A DNA stretch of 64,000 nt from Oscillospiraceae bacterium. GTDB taxonomy: Bacteria; Bacillota; Clostridia; Oscillospirales; Ruminococcaceae. The DNA is taken from positions 124,001 to 188,000 of the forward strand of contig JAFTXQ010000004.1 in assembly GCA_017461565.1 (NCBI GenBank), read 5' to 3'. Shown here piece by piece: positions 8,498 through 33,345 of this stretch. The position numbers and the translations under genes are program-made. The notes beneath the pieces are model-generated. The model was not told the DNA's origin. It ran no database searches and worked only from the letters and a program-made list of their open reading frames with translations. Position 1 is the stretch's first letter. Each line of letters starts with the position of its first letter.

Positions 8498-8527
8498 TTG
8501 AAAAAAATTACTTATTTAATGTATAAT
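8498..8527 (+). promoter_or_regulatory. Sigma-A promoter for the synthase operon
   Basis: TTGAAA (8498-8503) and TATAAT (8522-8527) are separated by 18 bases, about 40 bases before the acyltransferase start at 8566. No other convincing promoter was seen before the terminator at 14411, so the seven genes are probably one transcript. Confidence 0.75.
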
Positions 8528-8565
8528 ATTAGCATAAAAGGCGGTCTTTCCGTCAAAAGGAGCGT

Positions 8566-9258
8566 ATGATGAAAGAAGAAAAGAACGCTTTAAAGCAATC
8601 ACTATGGGGCAAGATATTCCAGAAGCTGATAACCGCCACGGCGTACTTCCTTTTCCGTCCGAAGATAGTATGGGAAGATAAACAACTGAAAAAGCAGCTT
8701 AAGGGACAGCCTGTGGTGTTTGTCGCAAATCACACACACCATTTTGATGGGGCGCTTATGGGAGCGATACTGGGCCGATACAGGCCTTATGTGCTGGTGT
8801 CGGAAAAATGGTACAGCAAAAAAGGCATGGGCACCATGATACGCTGGTGCAGATGTATGCCGATAGACCTGAGCGGCGCTGACGCCGACTGGTACATAAA
8901 AGCCGAGGGCCTGCTGAAAAATGGCGGTTCCATGATAATATTCCCCGAGGGCGGCATCGCACGGGAGGGCAAAATGCTTCCGTTCAAGCCGGGGGCGGCA
9001 CTTCTTTCCGCTTCTACGGGAGCTTCCATAATACCGATGGCGATATACGGCGAATACGACAAGGTCTTCGGCAAGCGTCAGAAGATCGCTGTCGGAAAGC
9101 CGATAGAAAGCAACTGCCCCGAAGATATGCGCCATTCCAAATATGCACGTCAGCTTATCAACGAAGCCGAAGCCGAGGTAAAGTGCCTTTACGGTACGCT
9201 TGAAGCGCAGTACGGCAAGCTTCCTGTATACACGGAAAGCTACACAGCAACAAAGTAA
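8566..9258 (+). CDS. PlsC-like 1-acyl-glycerol-3-phosphate acyltransferase family protein
   Basis: This 230-residue protein belongs to the lysophospholipid acyltransferase (LPLAT/PlsC) family, which transfers acyl chains from acyl-ACP or acyl-CoA to an alcohol acceptor. Motif I NHTHHFDG at about residues 64-71 holds the catalytic His and Asp (HX4D), and motif III FPEGGIA lies near 127-133, followed by PMAIYG. A hydrophobic N-terminal stretch may attach it to the inner leaflet. AAAGGAG precedes the ATG at 8566 (a second ATG follows directly). It is the first gene of the operon with ACP and ketosynthase, which suggests that it off-loads the product of that synthase onto a lipid or other acceptor rather than serving general phospholipid synthesis. 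The acceptor is unknown. Confidence 0.87.
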   Translation: MMKEEKNALKQSLWGKIFQKLITATAYFLFRPKIVWEDKQLKKQLKGQPVVFVANHTHHFDGALMGAILGRYRPYVLVSEKWYSKKGMGTMIRWCRCMPIDLSGADADWYIKAEGLLKNGGSMIIFPEGGIAREGKMLPFKPGAALLSASTGASIIPMAIYGEYDKVFGKRQKIAVGKPIESNCPEDMRHSKYARQLINEAEAEVKCLYGTLEAQYGKLPVYTESYTATK

Positions 9259-9304
9259 TCAAGCGGAATTTCCGCAGAAATATTAAAAATGAGAGGTATT
9301 TATT

Positions 9305-9550
9305 ATGAACACAGAAATCGCAGAAAAGATCAAGGGAATGTTAGTTGAAAATCTCCGTATCCCCGCAGATGAGCTGGAATACACCTCCGAGCTGTTTGGT
9401 GACGATATCGGTCTGGACTCCATCGACTCCATCGAGATCATCGCAGGTATCGACAATCTGTTCGGCGTTCAGATGACAGGCGCAGCGAGAGAGAACTTCC
9501 AGACTATCGAGACCCTCACAAAGTACGTTGAGGAGCACATGGGAGAATAA
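9305..9550 (+). CDS. Acyl carrier protein
   Basis: This is an 81-residue acidic carrier protein. The phosphopantetheine attachment site is the serine in GLDSIDSIE (Ser39), matching the DSL/DSI motif of ACPs. Predicted helices before and after this site fit the four-helix ACP fold. GAGAGG-type ribosome site precedes the ATG, and the stop is two bases before the ketosynthase ATG. Its position between an acyltransferase and a ketosynthase, together with a dedicated PPTase later in the operon, suggests a pathway-specific carrier and not the housekeeping AcpP, although the sequence alone cannot exclude the latter. Confidence 0.94.
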   Translation: MNTEIAEKIKGMLVENLRIPADELEYTSELFGDDIGLDSIDSIEIIAGIDNLFGVQMTGAARENFQTIETLTKYVEEHMGE

Positions 9551-9552
9551 TC

Positions 9553-11811
9553 ATGGGCAACGAAAGAAGATGCGTTGTAACAGGTCTTGGACTTGTATGT
9601 GCGCTCGGCGACAGCGTTGACAAATGCTGGAATGCCGCAGCAAACGGCGTGACAGGCATACGTGAGGTAACTACCGTTGATACAACAGACTGCTATGCAA
9701 ATATGGGCGCAGAGGTCGAGGCGAGATCCTCGGAGCTTTCTTCAGAGAACTACGACCGCTCCTCACTGCTGTGCATAAAGGCGGCAGGCGAGGCACTGGC
9801 TGACGCAGGCTATTCAGCAGACTGCTTCGACAGCGACAGGATCGGTGTTATCATCGGCAACTGCGTAGGCGGTGCGGCTAGCATCGACAAGTATTACACG
9901 GACGAGATAAAGAACGGTAATGCCGACACTTCCGATATTCTCAAAATGCCTGCTTCCGCTATTGCAAACAATGTGGCGAAGCATTTCGGACTCAACGGTG
10001 CTACAGCGAACATAGTTAATGCCTGTGCGGCAGGCACTATGAGTCTTTCATACGCCTGCGATCTTATCCGCAGCGGCAAGGCCGATGCTTTTGCGGCAGG
10101 CGGATCGGACAGCTTTTCCTCCCTTGCGTTCAGCGGCTTCCATGCACTGCACGCATTGGCAGAGGGCCCCTGCTCTCCCTTTAACAAGAGCAACGGCATC
10201 ACTCTCGGCGAGGGCGCAGGTATCCTTATCATCGAAAGCTACGAGCACGCTGTAAAACGTGGTGCAAAGATATACTGCGAAGTGCTGGGCAGCGGAGTAA
10301 GCTCCGATGCGCACCATATCACCGCCCCCCGTCCCGACGGACAGGGACAGATGAGCGCTATCAAGCGTGCCATAAGAAATTCGGGTCTTGAGTTCACTGA
10401 TATCGACTACATAAATGCTCACGGTACAGGAACCGCCAAGAACGATGAAGCGGAATTCCTGTCCCTGCATACGCTTTTCGATGGAAACGATCATGTTTCG
10501 GTAAGTTCAACAAAATCCATGACAGGTCACTGTCTGGGTGCGGCTGGCTCTATCGAGGCAGTGTTCACTGTCAAGGCAGTGTGTGAGGACACAGTTCCAC
10601 CCACCATCGGTTATAATGAAGAGGATCTTGAGAACCTTAAAGAAAAAGCAGGCAGCATCGACTTTGTGCCCAACACTAAGAGAGAGAAGCCCGTTAATTA
10701 TGCAGTGTCCAACTCCTTTGCTTTCGGCGGAAACAACGCCAGCATTGTGTTTGCGAAAAATCCCCACGATATCCCTGACAACACCAACAAACAGCGTGTT
10801 TTCGTCACAGGTATCGGCGAGCTTCTCGGGGCTTCCGATGAAGCGGGCAAGGGTCTGCGCTGTGATATCACAGGCGACGACTACAAGGAGCACGGCATAA
10901 AAATGGCGTTCTACCGCAAGCTTGACCGTTTCAGCCAGCTCCAGCTCATCTCGGGCATGAGAGCGCTTGCAGACGCAAAGATAACAGTAGACGAAGCCAA
11001 TGAGAACGACATCGGTATCATAATCGGAACCGCTGACGGTCCTATGACCGAGATCGTAGGCTTCCAGAAGAATACCATCCTTAACGGCACGGCAAACGGC
11101 AGTGCATTCAGCTTTCCCAACACCGTGTACAATGCGGCAGGCGGTTATTTCAGCATCTTTGCAGGAATAAAGGGCTATAACGTCACTGTTGCAAACGGTA
11201 TCCAGGCAGGACTTCAGAGTATATGCTATGCGGCTGATGTCCTTCACAGCGGCGAAGAGAGCATAATGGTAGCGTCCGGTACAGACGAAAACACCGATGT
11301 TACCTACGAGCTTTATGAAAAGCTTGGTTATACTGAGAGCTTCAGACTTGGCGAGGGCTCGGTTTCTATCGTACTTGAAACTGAGGAGAGTGCAGAAAAG
11401 CGTGGCGCAGAAAAACTGTGCGAGATAGCCGGTACATCCATGACGCACAAGTCGGTAGAATTCGGCACACTGAGAGGTTCAGAGGATGCCATGAAGCGTG
11501 CGATACTTGAAGCCTGCGAAAGCGCAGGTATCGCTCCCGATGAGATATCCGCAGTATGCGGCTTTGCAGACGGTAACAAGACCGTCGATGATATCGAGCG
11601 TGCTGTATACAGCGAGGTATTCACAAAGGATATTCCCGTTATCAGCGTAAGAAACGATATCGGAGAAGCAAGGGCGGCTGCGGCTGCACAGCAGGCGGCT
11701 TATGCAGCAAAGCTTCTCAAAAACGACAGCGAGGGTAAATATAATTACATCCTTGCGGTCGCAGCAGGAGTCGGCGGCTCTTATTCCGCAGTGGTGCTTA
11801 AAAAGATATGA
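9553..11811 (+). CDS. Fused ketosynthase and ketosynthase-like chain-length-factor protein
   Basis: This 752-residue protein carries two thiolase-fold domains. Residues 1-405 are an intact KAS II-type beta-ketoacyl-ACP synthase: Cys158 in NACAAGT, His290 in NAHGTGT, Lys321, and His326 in MTGHCLG, plus the C-terminal FGGNNAS. Residues 415-752 are a second, degenerate ketosynthase: NGIQAG at 548-553 replaces the nucleophile Cys with Ile, and the two His positions read FADG and NDIGEA. This arrangement mirrors the KS-alpha/chain length factor pairs of type II polyketide synthases and aryl polyene systems, but on one polypeptide. The KS would condense malonyl-ACP units on the upstream ACP while the second half shapes the dimer pocket. 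No malonyltransferase or enoyl reductase is encoded nearby. Domain calls are firm; product is unknown. Confidence 0.93.
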   Translation: MGNERRCVVTGLGLVCALGDSVDKCWNAAANGVTGIREVTTVDTTDCYANMGAEVEARSSELSSENYDRSSLLCIKAAGEALADAGYSADCFDSDRIGVIIGNCVGGAASIDKYYTDEIKNGNADTSDILKMPASAIANNVAKHFGLNGATANIVNACAAGTMSLSYACDLIRSGKADAFAAGGSDSFSSLAFSGFHALHALAEGPCSPFNKSNGITLGEGAGILIIESYEHAVKRGAKIYCEVLGSGVSSDAHHITAPRPDGQGQMSAIKRAIRNSGLEFTDIDYINAHGTGTAKNDEAEFLSLHTLFDGNDHVSVSSTKSMTGHCLGAAGSIEAVFTVKAVCEDTVPPTIGYNEEDLENLKEKAGSIDFVPNTKREKPVNYAVSNSFAFGGNNASIVFAKNPHDIPDNTNKQRVFVTGIGELLGASDEAGKGLRCDITGDDYKEHGIKMAFYRKLDRFSQLQLISGMRALADAKITVDEANENDIGIIIGTADGPMTEIVGFQKNTILNGTANGSAFSFPNTVYNAAGGYFSIFAGIKGYNVTVANGIQAGLQSICYAADVLHSGEESIMVASGTDENTDVTYELYEKLGYTESFRLGEGSVSIVLETEESAEKRGAEKLCEIAGTSMTHKSVEFGTLRGSEDAMKRAILEACESAGIAPDEISAVCGFADGNKTVDDIERAVYSEVFTKDIPVISVRNDIGEARAAAAAQQAAYAAKLLKNDSEGKYNYILAVAAGVGGSYSAVVLKKI

Positions 11812-11818
11812 TAACAGC

Positions 11819-11838
11819 GGCGGGCTGCACAGCCCGCC
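11819..11838 (+). other. Intercistronic hairpin in the synthase operon
   Basis: GGCGGGCT pairs perfectly with AGCCCGCC around a GCAC loop, directly after the ketosynthase stop. No T-run follows, so it should not terminate; it may stabilise the upstream mRNA or mark a processing site between the KS and ketoreductase messages. Confidence 0.65.
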
Positions 11839-11873
11839 CTGATCGCATAATGAATAATACAGGAGGACAGAAA

Positions 11874-12605
11874 GTGAGCAAGGTTGCAATAGTAACAGGT
11901 GCTTCCCGTGGAATAGGCAAGGCATGTGCGCTTAAGCTTGCCGAATGCGGCTATGACGTTGCGGTGAACTACGTCAGCAACGAAGCCAAGGCGCAGGAGG
12001 TGGTTTCCGCCATAGAAGCGATGGGACAGAAAGCTATCGCAGTAAAGGCAGACACCGCTGATCTCAAGCAGGTACAGGCGATGTTCCGTGAGGTACACAA
12101 GACCTTTGGTCAGCTTGACGTACTGGTAAATAACGCAGGCGTCGTTGATGACGCTTATCTGCTGATGATAAATGAGGATTCTCTTTCAAGAAGTCTTGAC
12201 ATAAATATCAAGGGTTACTTCCACTGTGCACAGCAGGCAGCGCTTAAGATGATAAAAACAGGCGGACGTATCGTGAACATCTCCTCTGTAAGCTCTGTGC
12301 TTGCAGTAGAGGGACAGGCTGTTTACTCCGCCACAAAGGGTGCGGTGAACTCCATGACCGCAACTCTCGCAAAGGAGCTTGCGCCCCGCAATATCCTTGT
12401 AAACGCAGTAGCTCCCGGATTTATCGAAACCGAAATGATGGATGCCATACCCGAGGACAAAAAGGAAGCATATATAGCTGCTATCCCCATGCACAAGTAC
12501 GGCAGGGCAGAGGATGTGGCGAATGTGGTTGCACAGCTCTGCTCCGATAATTTCGCATATATGACGGGACAGACTATCGTACTTGACGGAGGACTCAGCT
12601 TATGA
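11874..12605 (+). CDS. 3-oxoacyl-ACP reductase (FabG-like SDR)
   Basis: This 243-residue short-chain dehydrogenase reduces 3-ketoacyl-ACP to 3-hydroxyacyl-ACP with NAD(P)H. The cofactor motif TGASRGIG lies at about residues 9-16, NNAG at about 86-89, the catalytic Ser in VNISSVSS, and the YxxxK pair in VYSATKG. The C-terminal DGGLSL ending is typical of FabG. The start is a GTG at 11874 with AGGAGG seven bases upstream; an ATG-initiated extension from further upstream would run through the hairpin and is less likely. Its TGA overlaps the next ATG (ATGA). Role: the ketoreduction step of the operon's elongation cycle. Confidence 0.92.
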   Translation: MSKVAIVTGASRGIGKACALKLAECGYDVAVNYVSNEAKAQEVVSAIEAMGQKAIAVKADTADLKQVQAMFREVHKTFGQLDVLVNNAGVVDDAYLLMINEDSLSRSLDINIKGYFHCAQQAALKMIKTGGRIVNISSVSSVLAVEGQAVYSATKGAVNSMTATLAKELAPRNILVNAVAPGFIETEMMDAIPEDKKEAYIAAIPMHKYGRAEDVANVVAQLCSDNFAYMTGQTIVLDGGLSL

Positions 12606-13051
12606 TGAATCTACTTGAGATAAACCAGCGGATAAAGCAACGCCCTCCCTTTCAGATGATAGAACGTGTTATCGAGCTTGAGCCTAACGTTTCTGCAAAG
12701 GGAATCAAAAACGTATCGGTTAACGAGCCTTATTTTGTGGGACACTTCCCCGATGCTCCCATCATGCCCGGCGTGCTTATCATTGAGTGCGCAGCACAGC
12801 TCTGCTCTCTCGTTATCGCTCCTGATGATGCTGCCAATGACGAAAACAAGCTGTATGTGCTTCTTAAGGTAAAGGACTTCAAGTTCCTGCGGCCTGTCAT
12901 TCCCGGAGATCAGCTTACTATCGAGGTCAAGGCAACTATGGCAACAGCAGGTGCATACGAATTTTCCGCAGTGATATCCGCTGACGGTATAGTCAAGGCA
13001 AAGGGAAGTATGCTTTTCACCTCTATGGATAAGAGTGCGGTATATGGATAA
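12602..13051 (+). CDS. 3-hydroxyacyl-ACP dehydratase (FabZ-like hotdog protein)
   Basis: This 149-residue hotdog-fold enzyme has the FabZ signature GHFPDAPIMPGVL at about residues 47-59, with the catalytic His, and the partner Glu in IIECAAQ. It removes water from 3-hydroxyacyl-ACP to give a trans-2-enoyl-ACP. Length and fold match FabZ. The ATG at 12602 overlaps the ketoreductase stop, with GGAGG eight bases upstream (a second ATG follows immediately). With no enoyl reductase recognised in the operon, repeated use of this step without further reduction would leave conjugated double bases in the chain; that is an inference. Confidence 0.92.
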   Translation: MMNLLEINQRIKQRPPFQMIERVIELEPNVSAKGIKNVSVNEPYFVGHFPDAPIMPGVLIIECAAQLCSLVIAPDDAANDENKLYVLLKVKDFKFLRPVIPGDQLTIEVKATMATAGAYEFSAVISADGIVKAKGSMLFTSMDKSAVYG

Positions 13052-13694
13052 TATTCTGGATTTTTCCGCCTGCATCGTTGCGGGAGGAGATAACCTCCGC
13101 CCCCGTGTCGAGCAGGCACGCACCCTCTATTCCGAGATGAGCGAGGAATATTTCAACTACATATTAGCCAAAGAGGATAAGGCGTTGTCCGAAAGTGCCT
13201 GTGGATTTCTTCTGCTGGACAATCTGCTTTCAAAGCATGGGATAGAGAAAAATACGCTTGTCATCTCTCGTAATGGCGATGGCAGACCATGCATCATAAA
13301 CCGTCGTGATATTGATTTCAGCATATCCCATTCAGAGGGAGCTGCGATATGCTACCTTTCTACAGGAAAGGATGCAAAAATCGGCTGCGACATCCAGAGG
13401 GCAAGGAGCTACTCCAATGAGAAGATGGCAAGCCTTGCAAAGATATTCATGAGCGAGAACGACTATTCCGAGTTCCTTAAAAACACTGACGAAAAACACT
13501 TCTACACTGTCTGGACACGCCGTGAAGCCTACATAAAGGCTGAGGGCGGCGATGTATTTGCAGACCTCAGGGGTGTGGAACTTAACGGCGACAGATACCG
13601 CACAGGTGTGATAACCGCCTGCGGAAACAGATATTACTACAGTGTTTATACTACGATAAATACAAGGAGAACCAATGAGAGTATTAGTACTTAA
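13044..13694 (+). CDS. Sfp-type 4'-phosphopantetheinyl transferase family protein
   Basis: This 216-residue protein has the pattern of Sfp-type PPTases, which transfer phosphopantetheine from CoA to the ACP serine. Motifs are DFSISHSEG at about residues 92-100, IGCDIQRAR in place of the usual G(V/I)DIE, and WTRREAYIKAEG corresponding to W-x-x-KEAxxK. The Glu-to-Gln change in CDIQ affects a magnesium ligand and may alter efficiency. The ATG at 13044 overlaps the dehydratase stop by eight bases, indicating coupled translation; a GTG nine bases earlier is an alternative. A dedicated PPTase inside the operon argues that the operon is a self-contained synthase. Confidence 0.87.
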   Translation: MDNILDFSACIVAGGDNLRPRVEQARTLYSEMSEEYFNYILAKEDKALSESACGFLLLDNLLSKHGIEKNTLVISRNGDGRPCIINRRDIDFSISHSEGAAICYLSTGKDAKIGCDIQRARSYSNEKMASLAKIFMSENDYSEFLKNTDEKHFYTVWTRREAYIKAEGGDVFADLRGVELNGDRYRTGVITACGNRYYYSVYTTINTRRTNESIST

Positions 13695-14382
13695 CGGCAG
13701 TCCGAAATCAGAGCGGAGCAATACCCTTAATATAACAAAAGCGTTTCTTAAGGGATTCCCCGAGGATACCGAAGTGGAATATGTAAACATCTATAAGCTT
13801 AACATAAAGCCTTGTGTAGGGTGCTTCTCCTGTTGGAGCAAGACACCGGGAAAATGCGTGATAAAGGACGATATGCAGGAGCTTTACGGAAAGATCGAGG
13901 CTGCTGATATCGTGATCGAAAGCTTTCCGCTGTATTTCTTCGGTATGCCCTCGCAGCTCAAGTGTATGACGGATCGCTGCCTGCCCTTTATGCTGCCTTA
14001 TATGGGCAACCTTGTAGAGGACAAGAATGCATCTTTTCACGAGCTTCGTGATGAATCCATGCACGAAAAGCGGCTTGTGGTCATCACGACCTGTGGCTAT
14101 GTTGATGCAAACCCGATGTATCCCGCACTGTTAAAGCAGCTTGATCTTATCTGCGGCGACGGCCACTACACATCGATCCTCTGTCCCGAGGGTGAGCTGT
14201 TTATCGCAGAAAAAGCAAAACGCCAGCGTGAGGGCTACCTTGCCGAGATCACAAAGGCAGGTGCAGAGTTTGCGCAGAACCGCTGTCTTTGCGATGAAAC
14301 CAGAAAGCGCATCGCAAAACCCATTCTTTCGCCACAGGGCTTTGAAGCAATAACGCTTGCCCACTGGCAACAGAACAGCTGA
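13675..14382 (+). CDS. Flavodoxin-like NAD(P)H-dependent oxidoreductase
   Basis: This 235-residue protein belongs to the NADPH-dependent FMN reductase / multimeric flavodoxin superfamily. It opens with VLVLNGSPKSERSNT, the FMN phosphate-binding loop, followed by a CVGCFSCW cysteine cluster at about residues 47-54 that in iron-sulfur flavoproteins binds a cluster or disulfide, and FPLYFFGMPSQLK. AGGAG lies seven bases before the ATG, and the gene overlaps the PPTase end by 20 bases. As the last gene of the synthase operon it could reduce or isomerise the enoyl product, but sequence alone does not show a role; it may equally be a stand-alone quinone or flavin reductase. Confidence 0.83.
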   Translation: MRVLVLNGSPKSERSNTLNITKAFLKGFPEDTEVEYVNIYKLNIKPCVGCFSCWSKTPGKCVIKDDMQELYGKIEAADIVIESFPLYFFGMPSQLKCMTDRCLPFMLPYMGNLVEDKNASFHELRDESMHEKRLVVITTCGYVDANPMYPALLKQLDLICGDGHYTSILCPEGELFIAEKAKRQREGYLAEITKAGAEFAQNRCLCDETRKRIAKPILSPQGFEAITLAHWQQNS

Positions 14383-14410
14383 TAAACGCCAAGTGCAAAT
14401 GATAACATAA

Positions 14411-14440
14411 AAAAGTCTGAGAAGTATTCTCAGACTTTTT
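14411..14440 (+). terminator. Intrinsic terminator of the synthase operon
   Basis: AAAAGTCTGAGAA pairs with TTCTCAGACTTTT around a three-base loop, followed by T residues. The A-rich left arm also makes it usable for the converging minus-strand CPBP gene. Confidence 0.92.
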
Positions 14441-14458: not shown

Positions 14459-15190
14459 TTATTCTTTTCTCGATGATCTGAACCATCTGCCAGACACAAC
14501 AAGCCAGACAAGACCTGTTATACCAAACAGCGGCACAGCAATATCAAAAGCAAAAGACAGCTCATCGAATATAGAAACCAAAAAAGTTGTCAGATTGTTC
14601 CCTGCATGGACAAGGATGCACGGGACAAGGCTTCCGCTGCGTTGAGCCAGCAGCGCAAGACAATATCCCAGCACAAAGGTATAAGGCATCTGTGATACAT
14701 CAAGATGATACGCAGCAAAAAACGCCGCCGAAATAAGCGCAGCGCTGTTTGCTCCAAAGCTACCCGCCAACCGTGATAAAGCCGCTCCACGGAAAGCGAG
14801 CTCCTCTGCAACCGGGGAAAGTATTATCGTATACACCGCATACATAAGCATATCGTTTTCACTTAGCGTGACCTTGCCGCTCTCTTGCGGAAAAACAAGT
14901 CTGAACAAAAAAGCTGCCAGACAGGAGAGCAGCACCGCCCCGAAAAACACCGCAAGCGGCTCCAGGCGAGAGTAGTTCTCAGCCTTTCCAAAACGCTTTG
15001 GCTTGCCGCATATAAGCAGATATATAGCGAAGCTTACACCGAGGACGCAAACTGCGTTGATGAGCAGATAATACCAATAACCCTGTACAAGTCCCGAAAG
15101 CACCGAAATAAGCAGCAGACCTGCAAGCTGTGCCACGACAAATGCCGTAAGCACCATAAGCAGGTCTTTTAATTTGTTGTTTTCTGTCAT
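14459..15190 (-). CDS. CPBP family intramembrane metalloprotease
   Basis: This 243-residue polytopic membrane protein carries the CPBP (Rce1-like/Abi) protease motifs: EELAFRG with the glutamate pair and arginine, a later HLD segment, and VHAGNNL with the His and Asn. About seven hydrophobic segments are visible. The start at 15190 overlaps the upstream CPBP gene's stop (ATGA), which fixes it; a longer open frame running upstream lies inside the neighbour and is not supported. Family members cleave within membranes, act in bacteriocin self-immunity or protein processing; the substrate here is unknown. It forms a tandem pair with the next gene. Confidence 0.88.
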   Translation of the reverse strand: MTENNKLKDLLMVLTAFVVAQLAGLLLISVLSGLVQGYWYYLLINAVCVLGVSFAIYLLICGKPKRFGKAENYSRLEPLAVFFGAVLLSCLAAFLFRLVFPQESGKVTLSENDMLMYAVYTIILSPVAEELAFRGAALSRLAGSFGANSAALISAAFFAAYHLDVSQMPYTFVLGYCLALLAQRSGSLVPCILVHAGNNLTTFLVSIFDELSFAFDIAVPLFGITGLVWLVVSGRWFRSSRKE

Positions 15191-16275
15191 GAGCCACCCG
15201 AGATAAGTCCGCAAAGCGCATTGGCGATGAAATTGAATGTCATAGCGTCTATTGCAAGCAGAAGCATTACAATGATCGTTACACGGGAGAAGAAAACGCC
15301 CCAGCGCTTGCCTGCGCTGACATCCCATACCTTTTCCACACGATAGCGGCGTATCTTAGTAAGCTTGAATATCGCCATGATGATACCGATGACCATAAGC
15401 ATCAGTATCGCAAACAGATAAGCCACATACACTATCGCCATTCCCTGAAGCGGAAATTCTGCCGCACCGCCTGTTACAGGGTCGTAAGGCGCAGGTGTCT
15501 CTGCTGCTTTGAGATATTCCTGTACCTCGGGACTTGTGCCCATAAGGATCATTATTCCCGAGATACTGTTCAGGATAGCATGTATTATCGTGGTGGTGAC
15601 GATGGACTTTGTGGCTATTGCAAGATAACCGAGGAAAATACCTATGACAGTGGTATAAAGAAACTGCTGAAGATTTGCGTGGGTAAACCCGAACAGCAGG
15701 GCAGATGCGAAGATAGCAAAGCCGTTTCCGTAGGGACGCAGGCTCTCCATTACGATGCCTCTGAACCACAGCTCCTCGCATATAGGAGCGACTACCACAA
15801 GCTGAACGAACAGGATGACCGCAGCACCGAGATCAGTGGTCTGTATACCCTCAAGCGCAGTAAAAGAGTCGTTGAGCGAGGTATCCTTGAAAAAGCTTGC
15901 AACAAATACCGTCAGCAGGTTTGCAAGTATGGCTACGCCGTACATCGCAGGGAACATTCCCATGGCACTGCCGAAATAGGCGGGCTTTGCGTATACCTTT
16001 CTGAACATCCCCTGCGGCTTAAGCACGAAATATGCCACCGTGATAGGTATGGCGTTGAGGAATATAACAGACAGCAACATATCAATAATATGCAATGCAG
16101 TCATACCGAGACCCACGCACAAGGGTGCTATCAGCGTAGCGACAACGCTCACCAGTATACGGGAAACGTATACAGTTATCATCATTATGCCAATGCCGAA
16201 GCACGTTCTCTTGAAGCCCGGCATCTTATCCTCTGCTGGAATGGCCGCATCGGTCATTATCATCTCTTCCGACAT
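15187..16275 (-). CDS. CPBP family intramembrane metalloprotease
   Basis: This 362-residue membrane protein is a second CPBP protease: EELWFRG at about residue 166, FGFTHANLQQF, and TTIIHAILNS supply the three motif blocks. It is longer than its neighbour because of a 20-residue N-terminal cytoplasmic tail and an extended C-terminal region with two extra hydrophobic segments. GGAG lies upstream of the ATG at 16275. It is coupled to the following CPBP gene by a four-base overlap and follows aroK by 15 bases, so the pair is transcribed with aroK and the small lipoprotein. Tandem CPBP genes suggest related but distinct substrates. Confidence 0.88.
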   Translation of the reverse strand: MSEEMIMTDAAIPAEDKMPGFKRTCFGIGIMMITVYVSRILVSVVATLIAPLCVGLGMTALHIIDMLLSVIFLNAIPITVAYFVLKPQGMFRKVYAKPAYFGSAMGMFPAMYGVAILANLLTVFVASFFKDTSLNDSFTALEGIQTTDLGAAVILFVQLVVVAPICEELWFRGIVMESLRPYGNGFAIFASALLFGFTHANLQQFLYTTVIGIFLGYLAIATKSIVTTTIIHAILNSISGIMILMGTSPEVQEYLKAAETPAPYDPVTGGAAEFPLQGMAIVYVAYLFAILMLMVIGIIMAIFKLTKIRRYRVEKVWDVSAGKRWGVFFSRVTIIVMLLLAIDAMTFNFIANALCGLISGGS

Positions 16276-27316: not shown

Positions 27317-28807
27317 TCAAAAAAGCGATGCACGAATCAGCTCATCTGGCGTCGTAACGCCACGGTTGACAAGCTCTGCCGCAAACGCTTTCAGCGGCTT
27401 CATGCCCTGCTGACGCACAGCATAATCATGCAGTGCATCAGTGCTCTCTCCGTCTGAGATCATCCGACGGAGCGTTTTGTCGATATAAAGCACCTCATGT
27501 ATCGCTATCCTGCCTTTATATCCTGTGAATTTGCAATGCGGACATCCTTTTCCTCTGCGGATATAACGGCTATCATGCCCTATGATTTCACGCTCCTCCG
27601 CAGTGGGCGGGACCTCCTGCGAGCATTCCGGACAGACCTTTCTGAGAAGCCGCTGTGCGACTATTCCCGACAAGGCGTTTGCCGCAAGATATGGTGCGAT
27701 ACCCATGTCACGTAACCGTACAACAGCAGATGCCGCATCCGTTGTATGCAGCGTTGACAGTACAAGATGACCGGTTATCGCCGCCCTCACCGATATTTCA
27801 GCAGTCTGCGTATCTCGGGTCTCTCCGATCATAATGATATCGGGATCCTGCCTGAGCAGCGCCCTGAGTCCGTTGGCAAATCCGATCCCTGCGGCATTGT
27901 TCACCTCGGTCTGATTGACCCTTGCAATACGTCGCTCAACAGGATCCTCGATAGTGCATATATTCACAGGCAAAGCGGAGAGCATCTCAAGTATCATGTA
28001 AAGCGTCGTGGTCTTGCCGCTTCCCGTGGGTCCCGTAAAATACACCATGCCGCTGTGCGACGACAGTATCTTTGTCAGCTTCTTGTAATTATCACCACTC
28101 ATGCCGAATGTTTGTACATCGTCTATCTCGCAGCTTGTGGTCAGATATCTCAGCACAGCCTTTTCGCCGTATACGGTAGGAACTACAGATACACGCAAGC
28201 TTATGCGGTTTCCGTTCGCCTGCGTTGTTATGTTGCCGTCCTGCGGGAGTCTGTGTTCCGCTATATCGAGATCTGCCAAAATCTTTATCCTTGCTATAAG
28301 CTTTGCATGAAGCTCCTTCGGAAATGTGCGGTAATCGCCAACCAGTCCGTCTATCCTCATCCTGACGAGAGTATGCTCTTCAAACGGTTCAATGTGGATG
28401 TCACTGGCATGTTCATCATAACCGCAGCTTATCAGCGAGTCCACAATTTCTATGGCCGCATCCTCGTTCGCCGTCACTTCACGGCGGTTTGATATCGGTC
28501 TGAAATCAGCTCCATCACAGCAGATCTGAATGCTGCGCAAAATATACTCTCTTTCACAAAGATGGATCTCTATCTGCATACCTGCGATCTGCCTGATATC
28601 CTCACAGGCGTAAAGATCGGCAGGATCAGACATAGCCACGCACAGTACCCCTCCGCATATATCATACGGCAGCGCACAATAACGCTCCATCACCGTGCGA
28701 GGCAGCTTTTCAAGCGCCTGTGGAACTGCTTTGATATCCTGTGCAGGCAGTACGTCAAGCGAATATTGCACGCCCAACTGCTTCAGTGCCTGTCTGTCAT
28801 CGCTCAT
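27317..28807 (-). CDS. pilB: Type IV pilus assembly ATPase (PilB/GspE family)
   Basis: This 496-residue secretion ATPase powers pilin polymerisation at the inner membrane. The N-terminal N1E-type domain spans about 1-130. Walker A is GPTGSGKTTT, the Asp box EDPVERRIARVNQTEV, Walker B DPDIIMIGETRD, and the His box STLHTTDAAS; a tetracysteine zinc site CPECSQ and CPHCKF follows near residue 410-445. The start at 28807 follows GGGGTGAC. Its gene is 13 bases after a pseudopilin gene. There is no second ATPase of the PilT retraction type in the window. Confidence 0.94.
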   Translation of the reverse strand: MSDDRQALKQLGVQYSLDVLPAQDIKAVPQALEKLPRTVMERYCALPYDICGGVLCVAMSDPADLYACEDIRQIAGMQIEIHLCEREYILRSIQICCDGADFRPISNRREVTANEDAAIEIVDSLISCGYDEHASDIHIEPFEEHTLVRMRIDGLVGDYRTFPKELHAKLIARIKILADLDIAEHRLPQDGNITTQANGNRISLRVSVVPTVYGEKAVLRYLTTSCEIDDVQTFGMSGDNYKKLTKILSSHSGMVYFTGPTGSGKTTTLYMILEMLSALPVNICTIEDPVERRIARVNQTEVNNAAGIGFANGLRALLRQDPDIIMIGETRDTQTAEISVRAAITGHLVLSTLHTTDAASAVVRLRDMGIAPYLAANALSGIVAQRLLRKVCPECSQEVPPTAEEREIIGHDSRYIRRGKGCPHCKFTGYKGRIAIHEVLYIDKTLRRMISDGESTDALHDYAVRQQGMKPLKAFAAELVNRGVTTPDELIRASLF

Positions 28808-28820
28808 TAATGTCACCCCT

Positions 28821-29366
28821 TCACACGTCCGTGTAGATAATATATACATCACCGATATCATTGGAGCATACGCCATCCTGTATATCGGTATATCCTCTGT
28901 TGTTCATAAACTTCACCGTGCCACTCCGGATATATTCCGAATTGCCTTCACAAAGCTTTACTGTTACTCCCACAAGGTCAGGCGAAGCGCCGCTATATGA
29001 AAAGCCAACGCTCAGCTTCATCCCGTTAAGTATATCCTCACCGAATACATAGTCGCCGCCAGCAGTATCCGTCCCATCGCAAAACACTATTCCACTGCCG
29101 TCGTGCGGAATAAAGATCATCCTTGCTTCCGAAAATGGATAGTCCTCAAAGCCGAAGCCTATCCGCAGATCATTTCCATAGCGCAGTGTTTGGCAAAGGG
29201 TATCATATATCCCGTCTGTCAACAACCGAACCGAAGTGTTGCGGGCACTCCGTGCCGCTATGTTCATACCCAATACGATAACGCTCCCCACTGCCCCTGC
29301 TATTACCAGAAACACAAGGAGCGCAAGCATAGTTTCAGGCAGCGTAAACCCCTTGCATCTTTTCAT
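28821..29366 (-). CDS. Prepilin-type minor pilin
   Basis: This 181-residue protein has a class III signal peptide: MKRCKG followed by FTLPETMLALLVFLVIAGA, with cleavage expected after Gly6, the conserved Glu at mature position 5, and a hydrophobic assembly helix. The soluble part is beta-rich and carries several Cys. Its ATG overlaps the stop of the previous pseudopilin gene (ATGA), and pilB follows 13 bases later. It is likely a minor pilin priming or decorating the fibre. Confidence 0.82.
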   Translation of the reverse strand: MKRCKGFTLPETMLALLVFLVIAGAVGSVIVLGMNIAARSARNTSVRLLTDGIYDTLCQTLRYGNDLRIGFGFEDYPFSEARMIFIPHDGSGIVFCDGTDTAGGDYVFGEDILNGMKLSVGFSYSGASPDLVGVTVKLCEGNSEYIRSGTVKFMNNRGYTDIQDGVCSNDIGDVYIIYTDV

Positions 29367-29707
29367 GATGCGTCACCGCCTGTTTCTCCATCATAATAGC
29401 AAAAGTGCATATCTTCTGTTACACCGCAGACATAAAGCGTTATTTCCATACCCTCGGTCACTGTGCCGTTGTGATCTGTCACAACAGGAAAAACAGTTGT
29501 TGCATGCGCCTGCTTTCTCAACAAGCAGTCTGCCGCATCATCGGAACTGCGCCTCAGTTCTTCTGCCGCTGCGCTCAGATTTGCCGCAACGCCTACGCTC
29601 GTGAGCAGCATAACTGCCGCAGCCGCCAGCACAGCAAAGGCGCACAACGTCTCGGCTAGCGTAAATGCGCTGTTTTTTACAAGCCTGTGTAGCCTTTGAA
29701 ATGCCAT
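29363..29707 (-). CDS. Prepilin-type minor pilin with Ala at the cleavage site
   Basis: This 114-residue protein has the prepilin pattern FTLAETLCAFAVLAAAAVMLL after a 14-residue leader. The residue before the mature Phe is Ala rather than the usual Gly, which prepilin peptidases tolerate poorly in some systems. GGAGG lies six bases before the ATG at 29707. It overlaps the previous gene by 31 bases and the next by four. It is a probable minor pilin; processing efficiency is uncertain. Confidence 0.75.
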   Translation of the reverse strand: MAFQRLHRLVKNSAFTLAETLCAFAVLAAAAVMLLTSVGVAANLSAAAEELRRSSDDAADCLLRKQAHATTVFPVVTDHNGTVTEGMEITLYVCGVTEDMHFCYYDGETGGDAS

Positions 29708-30135
29708 TGATAACCTCCATCACTTTCCGAGCAATAAAACAGGGCGCCGCACTTCTCCATCGTATTTCCTACATCAACAGAGGAAATTATACACAGCTCA
29801 TCACGTCTGCGTTCATAGCTGATATATACCGGTTCTTCACATTCTTTATCAAAATATATCGCCCTGTCTTCTGCGGTAATCACACCATCCATAAAACTTC
29901 CGCCGTCAGGCAGCCAATCTGCATTTCCGCTGTTTATCATGTGCACGGCATAGACTATACCCGATTGCGTAAGCAGCTGCGCTTTTTGACGCACAGCGTC
30001 ATCCAACGCATGGCGATAAGCACTTGCTCCCGCCACAAGCACCGCCGCCGAGATCACAGTCATGACCATAAGGCAGCACAGCGCCCAGACCATTGAATGT
30101 CCGCTACGGCGCAAAAGACGTCTTAATCTGTCCAT
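29677..30135 (-). CDS. Pilus accessory protein, possible PilX-type minor pilin
   Basis: This 152-residue protein has a basic N-terminus (RLRRLLRRSG) and a single hydrophobic segment at about residues 15-38, then a helix with Gln/Ala residues and a small beta-rich domain. It lacks the G-FTLxE cleavage motif. By layout and position between PilO-like and pseudopilin genes it resembles PilX or GspK-type accessory proteins, but similarity is weak. GGAGGATGG precedes the ATG. It overlaps the neighbouring genes by 13 and 31 bases, so it is firmly within the operon. Confidence 0.6.
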   Translation of the reverse strand: MDRLRRLLRRSGHSMVWALCCLMVMTVISAAVLVAGASAYRHALDDAVRQKAQLLTQSGIVYAVHMINSGNADWLPDGGSFMDGVITAEDRAIYFDKECEEPVYISYERRRDELCIISSVDVGNTMEKCGALFYCSESDGGYQWHFKGYTGL

Positions 30136-30692
30136 ATTCCATCCTCCGAAACAGAGCAGGCATTGATATACAAAACTGCTTCCAGCCTGTCGGCGTCGGC
30201 TGATACAGCGCCGTCAGACATCGATCTGAACTCCACTTTCTCAACGTAAGCAGAGCTGTCGGCAGACACCATACCAATAAGCTTCAAAAGCGAATCGCAA
30301 CTGCAATCCACACCATATTCCGCTGATATCACCGTTATTCCGTTTTCGTGTCGTTCTGACACTTCAAGGGAAGATGGACGTACTGAACATTCCTCAAAAT
30401 AGCCCGACATCGTCTCATCAAAGTCAGCTGCGGTATAACCCTTATACATTACAGCGGTCATGTCGGATATACGTGTTTTCAGAGCGCTGTTCTCCTCCAT
30501 CATCTCCATTGCGGCCGCCCTTTCGTTATCTTCCATTTCACATCGGAATCGTGCATCCGCTATCTCATCCTCCAATGCGGCACTCTCGTTTATCATCGGT
30601 ACCACCACACACTGAAGTACCAGCACCACACCAAGGATCACGACAAGAAGTGCGGCAAGCAAAAGCTTATTTTTCTCTGTTTTTTCAGTCAT
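30123..30692 (-). CDS. PilO/GspM-like pilus assembly protein
   Basis: This 189-residue inner-membrane protein has a short cytoplasmic N-terminus, one transmembrane helix at about residues 10-33, a coiled coil to about 75, and a small ferredoxin-like fold domain ending in RLEAVLYINAC. This is the architecture of PilO/GspM, which forms an alignment complex with PilN and PilM. The ATG at 30692 overlaps the pilM-pilN stop by eight bases, with GGAGGTG eight bases upstream. Primary sequence is divergent, so the call rests on architecture and gene order. Confidence 0.7.
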   Translation of the reverse strand: MTEKTEKNKLLLAALLVVILGVVLVLQCVVVPMINESAALEDEIADARFRCEMEDNERAAAMEMMEENSALKTRISDMTAVMYKGYTAADFDETMSGYFEECSVRPSSLEVSERHENGITVISAEYGVDCSCDSLLKLIGMVSADSSAYVEKVEFRSMSDGAVSADADRLEAVLYINACSVSEDGIWTD

Positions 30693-32130
30693 CCCGATCC
30701 ACCTCCGCACCGTCGTCCAGTTTACATTCCAGTGTAAATTTATAAATGCCGTTTTCCTTTGAATAACCGCTGTACGATACACTGCCAAAAGCATCCGCAC
30801 CGATCAGACGTTGTACAAACAAAGGGACCGCAGCTGCATCATCTGCTTCAAAGCCAAGCATTATTTCGAGACCGTTTCCACGTATTTCTGTAAGACGTAT
30901 ATTACTTCCACACAGCTTATTCAGACGCAAAAACATATCGTCTTTGTACAGTGCAAAGCCGTTTTCATTGCATAATTCGGAAACGTCTGCAAGCATTGCC
31001 GCTGTATCATGAAGCAGCGCATTTTCCTCTTCGATCGCTGCAACATCATAAGCGGGAGCATCCGCCCGCTCCACAAGCTCAGCAAGCTCCTCCCGAAGCG
31101 TATTTTTATGTATATTCAATGCCGTAATACACGCCGTCACAGCAACCGCCATTATCACAGCAAAGACGATAACTGCATTTCGTCTCAGCGTATGACCGTC
31201 TGCCCGAAAATGATATGAGTTATCTCTCTTAAGCTCTGCCAGAAGATCTATATCGCCCTTATCCGCAGGCATCAGACCGCCAGCCGCAAATATGCATTCT
31301 GAAAGCTTTTCGCTGTAAGGAAGCTTTATCTCGTCCTGCTCCGGAACCTCCGCAATACGAAGCTCCTCATCCGAAAACGAGCTCCTGAGAAACGCCAGCT
31401 CGTCATCGCTGTAACCGCAAAGCAATACGTTCACGGCACCTGACAGCTTCTGCTCCTCTTTTGCGCTTTCCGCCAGCTCTTTCACAGAACGCCGTATCTC
31501 ATCGGAAAAGGCTTCGGTGCAGCGCTCGGAATATAATCTGCGCCTCTCTGTATACCGACACTCTCCATCGGCGAAAACAAATTGCACCGCCGTACTTCCG
31601 TCCAATGCCGACAGCACAAAGGAAGAACCGCACAACATCCCGCATTGCGACACGAGCCGTATTGCGGCACACTCCGACAGCTCTATGGATGAAACACCAA
31701 AGCCCGCCTCGCTCAAAAGCCGCACATATCCCTCTACAAGCTCCCGCTCTGCCATGCAGGCAAGCATCTCAGCTCTGCTGTCGCTGCAATATCCAAGTAT
31801 CTGTCCGGCATATAAAGAGCTACCCGAACCGCCTTTAAACTCCTGCTCCAAAAGCGCACGGCGATACGCTGGTTTTCTGACGTCGGGCACTGTAACATAG
31901 CGGGTGACTGCTCCGCTTATTATCAGCCTTACTTTATTTATAGGCGCTTCTATCTCCTTTGCCAGCACGATCAGCGCACTTGAAAGCTCTTCACGTCCGA
32001 TGACTGTACCGTTCAGCACTGTCCCTCTTGCAATAGGTATAGTTATCACCTTTTCGATCTCCGTGGATCTGCCTGCGGTCACGCCATACGCCGCCTGTAT
32101 CTTTTCGTTGGAAATGTATACGCTTACCAT
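30685..32130 (-). CDS. PilM-PilN fusion, type IV pilus alignment complex
   Basis: This 481-residue protein joins two components that are usually separate. Residues 1-290 form an actin-like PilM domain with VSVYISNEKIQAAYG at the start, an SALDGSTAVQF phosphate-loop-like segment and an FAAGGLM segment. A transmembrane helix at about 317-339 and the following coiled coil and small domain to 481 correspond to PilN. In standard systems PilM binds the cytoplasmic N-terminus of PilN; fusion would make this link permanent. AAGGTGAAGG precedes the ATG. It lies between pilC and pilO-like genes. Confidence 0.8.
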   Translation of the reverse strand: MVSVYISNEKIQAAYGVTAGRSTEIEKVITIPIARGTVLNGTVIGREELSSALIVLAKEIEAPINKVRLIISGAVTRYVTVPDVRKPAYRRALLEQEFKGGSGSSLYAGQILGYCSDSRAEMLACMAERELVEGYVRLLSEAGFGVSSIELSECAAIRLVSQCGMLCGSSFVLSALDGSTAVQFVFADGECRYTERRRLYSERCTEAFSDEIRRSVKELAESAKEEQKLSGAVNVLLCGYSDDELAFLRSSFSDEELRIAEVPEQDEIKLPYSEKLSECIFAAGGLMPADKGDIDLLAELKRDNSYHFRADGHTLRRNAVIVFAVIMAVAVTACITALNIHKNTLREELAELVERADAPAYDVAAIEEENALLHDTAAMLADVSELCNENGFALYKDDMFLRLNKLCGSNIRLTEIRGNGLEIMLGFEADDAAAVPLFVQRLIGADAFGSVSYSGYSKENGIYKFTLECKLDDGAEVDRDD

Positions 32131-32151
32131 TGTCCTTCACCTTTCAGAACG

Positions 32152-33345
32152 TTAAACTCCCCAATCTGCGCCAATATTACCATACATATTGTATATTGGT
32201 ATCATTACGGACAGCACCACAACAAGTATAACCACAGCCATCAGCACGATAAGCATCGGCTCAGCCAGCTTCACCAGCTTTTTTGTTGCTGCGGCGGCGT
32301 CATATTCCATTATACCCGCCATATTCACAAGAAGCTCTTCGGTTCTGCCGCTCTCTTCTCCCACAGCAAGCGCCGTTGTCAGTTTTATATCCAGACCGTC
32401 CACGACAGAAAGCGCTCTCGCCAAAGATACTCCCGAACTTACGCAGTTTAAGACCTCGTCAAACTGCGCATAGACATATCCGTTTCCGATCGTTTCCCTC
32501 GCCTGTGAAAGTGCACCCAGCACAGGCACGCCCCCTGCATAAAGCGCCGAAAATGTACGTGCAAATCTTGCTGTGTAAATTATTCTGTTCAGCCTGCCGA
32601 TATACGGAAGCCTAAGCCTTAGCTTGTCTATCACACTGCGTATTGGGCGCAATCCCTTTAACCATAACACGATCACCGCCAGTAACGCCAACGACGCCAA
32701 CAAAACGAACGGCTGCTCTGTAAACAGACGGCTTACGGCTATCATAAATTCCGTAAGTGCAGGAAGCTCCATACCATCAAACAATCCCATAAACGACGGA
32801 AAAACAAAAGTGAACACCGCAACTATCACAACAAGGGTTATCGCAAGCAGTATCGCAGGATACAGCATTGCGCTGCGCAGCTCCCTTTCAGTGCGGTATT
32901 CAGCCTCGTAGTAATCTGCCATCCTCGCTAACGCTTCCTCTAGCTTTCCGCCTGTCTCGCCGGACTTAACCATACCTATCAACAGCGGCGGAAAACATCC
33001 GTGTTCCAGCTCAAGCGCCCTATACAAAGGATCGCCCCTTTTCACGCTTTCGTTTACCGAGCCCACAATCGCACGTATACGCACCGATCCGGCACGTCCT
33101 GCAATAATATCAAGAGCTTTGCCTATCGGCACTCCCGCTCCAAGCAGCGAAGAAGCTTCACGGCAGATGTCTGCCAGCTGAAGGCTGTTAAGAGTTCTGC
33201 CGACCCTACCGACTTCACTGTACTTAATAAGGTACCATCCGTCCTGCTCAAGCTGTGCCCGCAGGTGCTCTGCTAACCTCGCCCTCGTTCTGCCTTTACG
33301 GATCTTGCCGTCTGCGCCTGCTGAGATATATTTATATTCGTTCAT
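32152..33345 (-). CDS. pilC: Type IV pilus inner-membrane platform protein (PilC/GspF family)
   Basis: This 397-residue protein has the two-copy GspF architecture: a cytoplasmic N-domain (about 1-160) with the LGAGVPIGKALDIIAG block, hydrophobic segments at about 165-225, a second cytoplasmic repeat with LYAGGVPVLGALSQARE, and a C-terminal transmembrane segment MLIVLMAVVILVVVLSVM. Family members bind PilB and form the base of the fibre. GGTGG lies near the ATG. It is separated from the major pilin gene upstream by a terminator-like hairpin. Confidence 0.94.
   Translation of the reverse strand: MNEYKYISAGADGKIRKGRTRARLAEHLRAQLEQDGWYLIKYSEVGRVGRTLNSLQLADICREASSLLGAGVPIGKALDIIAGRAGSVRIRAIVGSVNESVKRGDPLYRALELEHGCFPPLLIGMVKSGETGGKLEEALARMADYYEAEYRTERELRSAMLYPAILLAITLVVIVAVFTFVFPSFMGLFDGMELPALTEFMIAVSRLFTEQPFVLLASLALLAVIVLWLKGLRPIRSVIDKLRLRLPYIGRLNRIIYTARFARTFSALYAGGVPVLGALSQARETIGNGYVYAQFDEVLNCVSSGVSLARALSVVDGLDIKLTTALAVGEESGRTEELLVNMAGIMEYDAAAATKKLVKLAEPMLIVLMAVVILVVVLSVMIPIYNMYGNIGADWGV

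Follow-up and report, generated by a model that had tools for sequence, protein, structure and literature searches.

A conserved gut-bacterial operon with a fused ketosynthase–chain length factor as a candidate synthase of unsaturated, possibly polyenic, acyl chains

We analyzed a 64,000-nucleotide stretch of an Oscillospiraceae bacterium genome (contig JAFTXQ010000004.1, positions 124,001 to 188,000; hereafter the window), in which a preliminary description had proposed a seven-gene synthase operon at 8498..14440. Pfam and NCBIfam models found all seven genes at that place (Table 1). The genes are co-directional on the + strand, spanning 8566-14382 between a promoter match and a terminator hairpin, in the order PlsC-like acyltransferase, acyl carrier protein (ACP), fused ketosynthase–chain length factor (KS-CLF), ketoreductase (KR), FabZ-like dehydratase (DH), 4'-phosphopantetheinyl transferase (PPTase), and a flavoprotein. 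Tight overlaps had been described for the operon; they were found in the last four genes (KR/DH 4 bp, DH/PPTase 17 bp, and PPTase/flavoprotein 20 bp), but the first genes are separated by gaps of 46 bp (PlsC to ACP), 2 bp (ACP to KS-CLF), and 62 bp (KS-CLF to KR). The KR probably starts at the GTG at 11874, behind AGGAGG, rather than at the mechanical open reading frame (ORF) start at 11808.

Table 1 Features of the operon in the window
Feature	Coordinates	Strand	Details
Sigma-70-like promoter, TTGAAA-18-TATAAT	8498..8527	+	11/12 matches, 38 bp 5' of the first gene; consensus match only
PlsC-like acyltransferase, 230 aa, HX4D and PEG motifs	8566..9258	+	PF01553, 76 bits; AGGAG before start
ACP, 81 aa, LDSI site	9305..9550	+	PF00550 PP-binding
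Fused KS-CLF, 752 aa, KS half about 1-408	9553..11811	+	Two stretches each of ketoacyl-synt N and C domains
KR, short-chain dehydrogenase/reductase (SDR), FabG-like	11874..12605	+	PF13561, 220 bits
FabZ-like 3-hydroxyacyl-ACP DH, 149 aa	12602..13051	+	PF07977
PPTase, 219 aa	13035..13694	+	PF01648, 40 bits
Flavodoxin-fold flavin mononucleotide (FMN) reductase, 235 aa, CX2CX2CX7C	13675..14382	+	PF03358/PF02525 (FMN_red/Flavodoxin_2)
Terminator hairpin	14410..14440	+	14 pairs, 3' arm ends in T run; -16.6 kcal/mol, z = -6.55

The single promoter and single terminator of the preliminary description were both recovered. The region has no real excess of promoter-like sites (12 observed versus 10.8 expected), so the weight of the promoter match lies in its position and score. 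The energy of the terminator hairpin was equaled by none of 200 shuffles; in this hairpin the T run serves as the 3' arm and pairs with a run of A, which probably explains why a simple scanner did not pick it up. The window was compared gene by gene with two related loci (L045 and L046). Of the 14 comparisons, 10 gave a usable ratio of nonsynonymous to synonymous substitution (dN/dS), ranging over 0.015-0.18 with synonymous sites near saturation. By gene, against one or both loci, the values were 0.085-0.087 for KS-CLF, 0.04-0.05 for KR, 0.025-0.04 for DH, 0.015 for the flavoprotein, 0.07 for ACP, 0.12 for PlsC, and 0.18 for PPTase. Saturated dS yielded no ratio in three of the 14 comparisons, and an ACP value of 1.0 against L045 was left out as the product of a probably misplaced ORF start. 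The seven-gene set is intact, conserved, and constrained.

The KS half of the central protein carries C158, H290, K321, and H326, where the same columns of the CLF half hold I, F, R, and E. These four residues, along with a QAG motif at 551-553 in the second half, are invariant in 13 aligned same-genus proteins. When fused proteins were aligned by halves with references, the Cys, the Lys, and both His were kept in 14/14 KS halves, while the Cys and both His were lost in 14/14 CLF halves; the Lys column varies, with Lys still present in five of the 14. The protein thus joins a KS with Cys-His-Lys-His to a KS-like half without the Cys and both His, the arrangement of the fused KS-CLF family. Its AlphaFold model (predicted local distance difference test, pLDDT, 73; pTM 0.84) had as its best solved fold match the KS-CLF didomain of PfaC (6riw), covering both halves (E 1.1e-39, TM 0.71 by query length, 918 columns). 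The remaining 49 fold matches listed were KAS II/FabF-type chains over about 417-443 columns. By sequence, the nearest solved KS and CLF chains among the matches listed were those of PDB 9s5h.

Placing the KS on a phylogeny had been suggested as a check, and an IQ-TREE tree of 39 rows with a midpoint root was built from KS and CLF halves. By their KS halves, all 14 fused proteins group together in a single clade (100/99), which includes proteins from a cyl-like cluster (L126), from Priestia megaterium plasmid pBM500 (L129), and from a Streptomyces plasmid (L130). FabF, FabB, aromatic KS, aryl-type KS, and other stand-alone KSs fall outside it; the references include no KS of Gram-negative aryl polyene (APE) clusters. 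A single clade with the same support (100/99) holds the CLF halves, and the two discrete type II CLFs are separate from it; within each of the two clades, the gut proteins are set apart as an 11-row subclade (100/100). The most economical interpretation of this tree is that the KS-CLF fusion arose once, long ago. The single fused KS-CLF, part of the layout that the preliminary description called unfamiliar, is real but not unique, as it shares its clade with those of cyl-like polyene clusters and the Streptomyces plasmid enzyme.

A scan of a genome collection yielded 232 candidate stretches and 125 relatives, of which 80 (56-84% identity) were kept; all locus counts given here cover these 80. 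The order PlsC-ACP-KSCLF-KR-DH-(PPTase)-flavoprotein was found again in related genomes, which weighs against a chance arrangement. Relatives include Ruminococcus bromii YE282, ATCC 27255, and 5AMG, Ruminococcaceae bacterium P7, Saccharofermentans metagenome-assembled genomes (MAGs), and many rumen and hindgut MAGs, and a copy 53.5% identical over 93% was found on the Lachnospira ([Eubacterium] eligens) megaplasmid NC_012780. Within the genus, KS-CLF was observed in 33 of 37 genomes, our own included (29 full or nearly full length, 2 split, and 2 partial). In four genomes (G009, G017, G018, and G026; completeness 73-99%), only FabF-type matches to it were seen, and 24 genomes from other families of the order gave only FabF-type or modular KS matches. 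Among 391 genomes of the class, searched at E <= 1e-100, six match both halves (our own, three of family f66, and two of f50), and five further genomes match in the KS half only.

Across the 80 loci, the operon contains an ACP in 78, a KR in 78, a flavoprotein in 72, a DH in 51 (counting that of L118, only 33% identical), a PlsC in 47, and a recognizable PPTase in 27. Where the contig extends far enough, the flavoprotein is present at 58 of 59 loci, PlsC at 37 of 64, and PPTase at 22 of 64. R. bromii ATCC 27255 has the operon without a PPTase, and Saccharofermentans-titled loci (e.g., L091, L095, and L102) have the short form ACP-KSCLF-KR-flavoprotein. In the Clostridiales MAG RGIG5971, at a locus of the Saccharofermentans type (L098, 9724-21164), a short operon that lacks a DH gene between those for KR and flavoprotein lies directly upstream of the housekeeping fatty acid synthesis operon, FabH-FabK-FabD-FabG-FabF-AccB-FabZ-AccC, names that were read from translations, with FabK confirmed in that genome. 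The L. eligens megaplasmid (L128, 9260-18048) carries ACP-KSCLF-KR-FabZ-MAT-AccD-AccA-flavoprotein-PlsX, in which the malonyltransferase (MAT), AccD, AccA, and PlsX suggest a malonyl supply in and a lipid route out. Given that the gene sets vary in this way, we take the common core to be ACP, KS-CLF, KR, and flavoprotein, with dehydration, malonyl supply, and release met differently by lineage. Separately, the R. bromii YE282 assembly (G448, the genome of L059) was observed to hold two separate fused KS-CLFs (on contigs C36 and C60), and on its contig C52 there are open frames of great length, the longest of 6648 and 5556 codons, that are rich in KS and look modular-PKS-like (PKS, polyketide synthase). 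Ruminococcaceae bacterium P7 (G449, the genome of L090), whose operon has no recognizable PlsC, had 57 dockerin matches, the most of ten genomes; dockerin counts in these ten showed no clean link to the operon.

The remaining biosynthetic genes were assigned by profile. The ACP is accompanied by its DS motif in 78 of 78 relatives that have it in the operon. The DH scored 128 bits against NF000582 (FabZ), above the cut-off of 113, and 124 bits against TIGR01750, below the cut-off of 155. Our own genome holds four PF01553 proteins, the PlsC-like one of the operon included, and one further PPTase match outside the operon.

The flavoprotein had been described as a flavodoxin-like reductase added to the synthase. 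Iron-sulfur flavoproteins (Isf), which bind a [4Fe-4S] cluster, have a compact four-cysteine motif, CX2CX2CX4-7C, and the CX2CX2CX7C of this flavodoxin-fold protein resembles it; the same spacing is present in 75 of 75 relatives collected. Its nearest solved sequence is the flavone reductase FLR (7d38), at 38 bits with the single sequence and 45 bits with a profile over ~105 residues, followed by azo- and quinone reductases. The model (pLDDT 85) matched the folds of azoreductases, indigo reductase, and quinone reductases, with flavone reductase at rank 45. Both FLR and the operon flavoprotein have a four-Cys motif in the aligned stretch, but FLR has 310 aa and CX2CX2CX11C where ours has 235 aa and CX2CX2CX7C. 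FLR represents a distinct ene-reductase class that serves flavone breakdown, and the main text of the paper describing it does not contain the term "iron-sulfur" (PMC7862272).

The reductase is present as described, but it is no extra. In addition to its presence at nearly all loci, the flavoprotein was found in nine of nine operon-bearing genomes tested and was not found in four of four operon-less genomes, of which G018 is 73% complete and G026 is 9% contaminated. When protein distances were compared across 68 of the 80 loci, those of KS-CLF, KR, ACP, and flavoprotein were correlated (r 0.79-0.94, permutation p 0.001); some correlation is to be expected among related sequences in any case, so the support is weak. 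The flavoprotein is a near-constant, co-inherited partner of the operon.

Primary fatty acid synthesis (FAS) is encoded elsewhere. Contig C10 of our own genome carries a FAS operon, FabD/FabH/FabG/FabF/AccB/FabZ/AccC/AccD/AccA, with names read from translations and a PF00109 match verifying the KS. Identity between the FabF of this FAS operon and the KS half is 38%, and the two sit in different parts of the tree. Stand-alone KS frames of 407-433 aa were also seen in nine of nine other genomes carrying the fused protein; for L. eligens, the search covered the megaplasmid. The preliminary description had noted the lack of a malonyltransferase in the operon and supposed that FabD is borrowed; the operon indeed has none, and a FabD, as read from its translation, is available in the FAS operon. 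FabK gave nothing above cut-off in nine of nine same-genus genomes, where any matches were weak and partial (E 1e-7 to 1e-4), and this raised the possibility that the flavoprotein is the housekeeping enoyl reductase. We rejected it on two grounds: FabV occurs in operon-less genomes, and a search of the four such genomes found no flavoprotein. FabV (PF12241) was above cut-off in eight of ten genomes tested, including operon-less G009, G017, and G026, and in eight of nine same-genus genomes tested; as a control, PF12241 matched none of 14 genomes. In this genus FabV thus seems to act as the housekeeping enoyl reductase, and FabK was found in R. bromii ATCC 27255, P7, and the genome of L098. Since the flavoprotein tracks operon presence while the housekeeping step seems to be covered by FabV or FabK, we conclude that it serves the operon. 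In our own assembly (93% complete), neither FabK nor FabV was found, with FabI not checked and 28 SDR matches left unsorted; 16S was not found in this assembly either.

Known systems close to this one include the cyl operon and cyl-like clusters, which are of the granadaene (ornithine rhamno-polyene) type; the nearest relatives of the fused KS-CLF outside the gut clade lie in cyl-like clusters. They have in common with this operon an ACP, a KR, a FabZ-like DH, a PPTase, and iterative alkene-forming logic, and in the pathway put forward for cyl, a chain of 12 alkenes arises through such KS/KR/DH logic (PMC6985545, section 7). The GCV_T protein (CylF), the ATP-binding cassette (ABC) exporter (CylA/B), the glycosyltransferase, and the MAT of cyl operons are absent from the seven proteins and the flanking genes read, and, unlike cyl, this operon has a PlsC-like acyltransferase and a flavoprotein. 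The CylE acyltransferase is described as universally present in cyl operons (PMC6985545). None of the seven proteins was identified as CylE, all being otherwise assigned; this negative was reached without a CylE query and covers the operon, not the remainder of the genome. The two cyl-like clusters in our tree, whose fused KS and CLF halves each fall in the clades of the operon's own, are worth describing. L126 (3619-17041, in the 4.6-Mb genome G257) has a PPTase, glycosyltransferases, two 4HBT proteins, GCV_T, an ABC transporter, FabZ, KR, MAT, and a fused KS-CLF, along with two flavoproteins related to ours, one with CX2CX2CX7C near the cluster end and one with CX2CX2CX8C beside the fused KS-CLF. 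L129 (4797-12427, P. megaterium QM B1551 pBM500) is a plasmid cluster with a fused KS-CLF, GCV_T, MAT, FabG, ACP, FabZ, and PPTase.

PfaC, a part of multidomain polyunsaturated fatty acid synthases, also has its KS and CLF in one chain, at 16% identity to the operon protein; in contrast to the PfaC synthases, the other enzymes of our operon are discrete. APE clusters resemble the operon in having KS-CLF alongside FAS-like genes, and the APE chain has been found in lipids, according to the portions consulted of PMC8041823 and PMC8253772. The ketosynthases described for APE in part of PMC8358021 are an ApeO-ApeC heterodimer and another one. The operon instead has a single fused protein and no aryl starter gene, and thus lacks the discrete KS and CLF, second KS, and aryl starter enzymes of APE clusters; a stretch of E. 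coli CFT073 examined for an APE cluster contained none. The aryl-type PKS of Apilactobacillus (plasmid-borne) lies outside the fused clades and was rejected as a relative. Celluxanthenes, the yellow affinity substance of cellulolytic clostridia, share with our proposal the idea of a polyene in anaerobic polysaccharide degraders. The cex cluster has an iterative type I PKS, CexF, and two KASIII (β-ketoacyl-ACP synthase III) enzymes, as described in part of PMC12144888, and a celluxanthene-type origin was rejected, there being no CexF-type PKS or KASIII pair in the operon. Overall, the operon probably works like cyl-type and aryl polyene synthases but is filed as neither. Fused KS-CLF synthases are a known kind, and within them it represents a new clade with a new gene set. 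Literature searches listed no title or abstract on such an operon in Ruminococcus, Saccharofermentans, or Lachnospira among their matches, and "fused" and "ruminococc" had no occurrences in a type II PKS catalogue (PMC10132072).

The original view of the operon as an acyl-chain synthase in its own right, built around one fused KS-CLF, held up, with seven genes confirmed and separate from FAS. We consider it an even proposition that this predicted type II synthase makes an unsaturated, probably polyenic chain that is tailored by the flavoprotein and passed to a lipid. In such a pathway, the PPTase would load the dedicated ACP, and malonyl-ACP would come from the FabD of FAS. The KS half would carry out condensation, with chain length set by the CLF half. 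KR and DH would turn each keto group into an alkene in every round, and without routine enoyl reduction, conjugated double bonds would pile up into a polyene or polyunsaturated chain, as proposed for cyl. Hydride transfer to conjugated substrates is what relatives of the flavoprotein carry out, and the flavoprotein might reduce the chain at one or more chosen positions. The PlsC-like enzyme would move the ACP-bound chain to a membrane (lyso)lipid. Lineages without PlsC may rely for this transfer on a different acyltransferase (in L. eligens, PlsX) or on further enzymes of the host.

Several observations weigh against this proposal. The product is predicted from the genes. The assignment of a polyene to an operon with no recognizable enoyl reductase, as originally argued, is less secure now, because the flavoprotein is near-constant and, among solved proteins, the one closest to it in sequence is an ene-reductase; that resemblance to FLR is itself weak, and one locus (L081) has no flavoprotein. 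The PlsC-like enzyme had been proposed to place the chain on a lipid, but no recognizable PlsC was found at 27 of 64 loci with enough upstream DNA, so PlsC-mediated transfer to lipid would not be universal. Likewise, 42 of 64 loci with enough downstream DNA have no recognizable PPTase. The KS-CLF model is of modest confidence, with a root-mean-square deviation to 6riw of 9.8. The tree has few type II references, seven of its 39 rows are of odd letter make-up, and two Streptomyces rows are long. "Cyl-like" for L126 and L129 refers to gene content, CylE being identified in neither. Finally, five genomes of other genera of the family had no match to KS-CLF at E <= 1e-100.

The main doubt is how much the flavoprotein reduces: it could reduce every enoyl, giving a saturated product, which would go against a polyene, or only some. 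It is accordingly possible, though rather unlikely in our judgment, that the flavoprotein is a true enoyl reductase; the product would then be no pigment but a chain of set length, either saturated or with a single double bond, destined for a special lipid. The flavoprotein is nearly as constant as the KR and is strongly constrained (its dN/dS value is against L045), its nearest solved sequence relative is an ene-reductase, and the PlsC and PlsX partners are ordinary lipid enzymes. However, the FLR match is short and low-scoring, azo- and quinone reductases make up most of the listed fold matches, and the two related flavoproteins among the polyene-type genes of L126 suggest that such flavoproteins accompany polyene-type synthesis.

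A released small molecule, such as a cyclized, aromatic, or short polyketide (quinone-like or cispentacin-like) reduced by the flavoprotein, appears improbable. The flavoprotein fold is quinone-reductase like, and KS-CLF, ACP, and DH have matches to the cispentacin AmcF, AmcB, and AmcE models, but all are under cut-off (258 of 325, 37 of 80, and 59 of 140 bits), and a cispentacin-like assignment was rejected. There is also no cyclase or aromatase among the seven proteins, and the KS and CLF of an aromatic type II PKS of Streptomyces (L137) lie outside the fused clades. A primary FAS operon with a fused FabF, which the preliminary description would have accepted had the KS grouped with FabF and no other FAS genes existed, is refuted: the KS half scores near the FabF model (473 bits, cut-off 494) and above the PRK07314 subfamily cut-off (454 versus 387), but a separate FAS operon exists, the KS half lies outside FabF, and four same-genus genomes have no match to the operon KS-CLF or flavoprotein.

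Elsewhere in the window, two Rce1-like CAAX protease genes (PF02517) lie side by side at 14459-16275 on the - strand, convergent with the operon. Further along, 27317-33345 on the - strand encodes proteins that we take to be GspE/PilB, PilM, and GspF/PilC of a type II secretion system or type IV pilus.

The separate clade, with its reduced set of genes, is present in most genomes of the genus and in cultured R. bromii and L. eligens strains, and would point to a shared, unrecognized lipid or pigment. In its broadest form, the proposal is that gut and rumen commensals (R. bromii and kin, Saccharofermentans, and L. eligens) widely make undescribed polyene-type membrane lipids through a fused KS-CLF synthase, with a new ene-reductase of flavodoxin fold as its core partner determining where the double bonds lie, and that these may also underlie the yellow pigment of ruminococci such as R. 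flavefaciens; we regard this as speculative and unlikely to hold in full. The operon is a candidate for pigment in ruminococci; R. flavefaciens DSM 25089 is reported to have neither a cex-like cluster nor detectable celluxanthenes (PMC12144888). The flavoprotein, present at nearly every locus, can be tested as a possible new kind of ene-reductase acting alongside a type II synthase, and R. bromii ATCC 27255 and L. eligens ATCC 27750 are cultured carriers in which direct testing is possible. If such a lipid or pigment is made, it could shape membrane properties, oxygen tolerance, or host contact in these bacteria.

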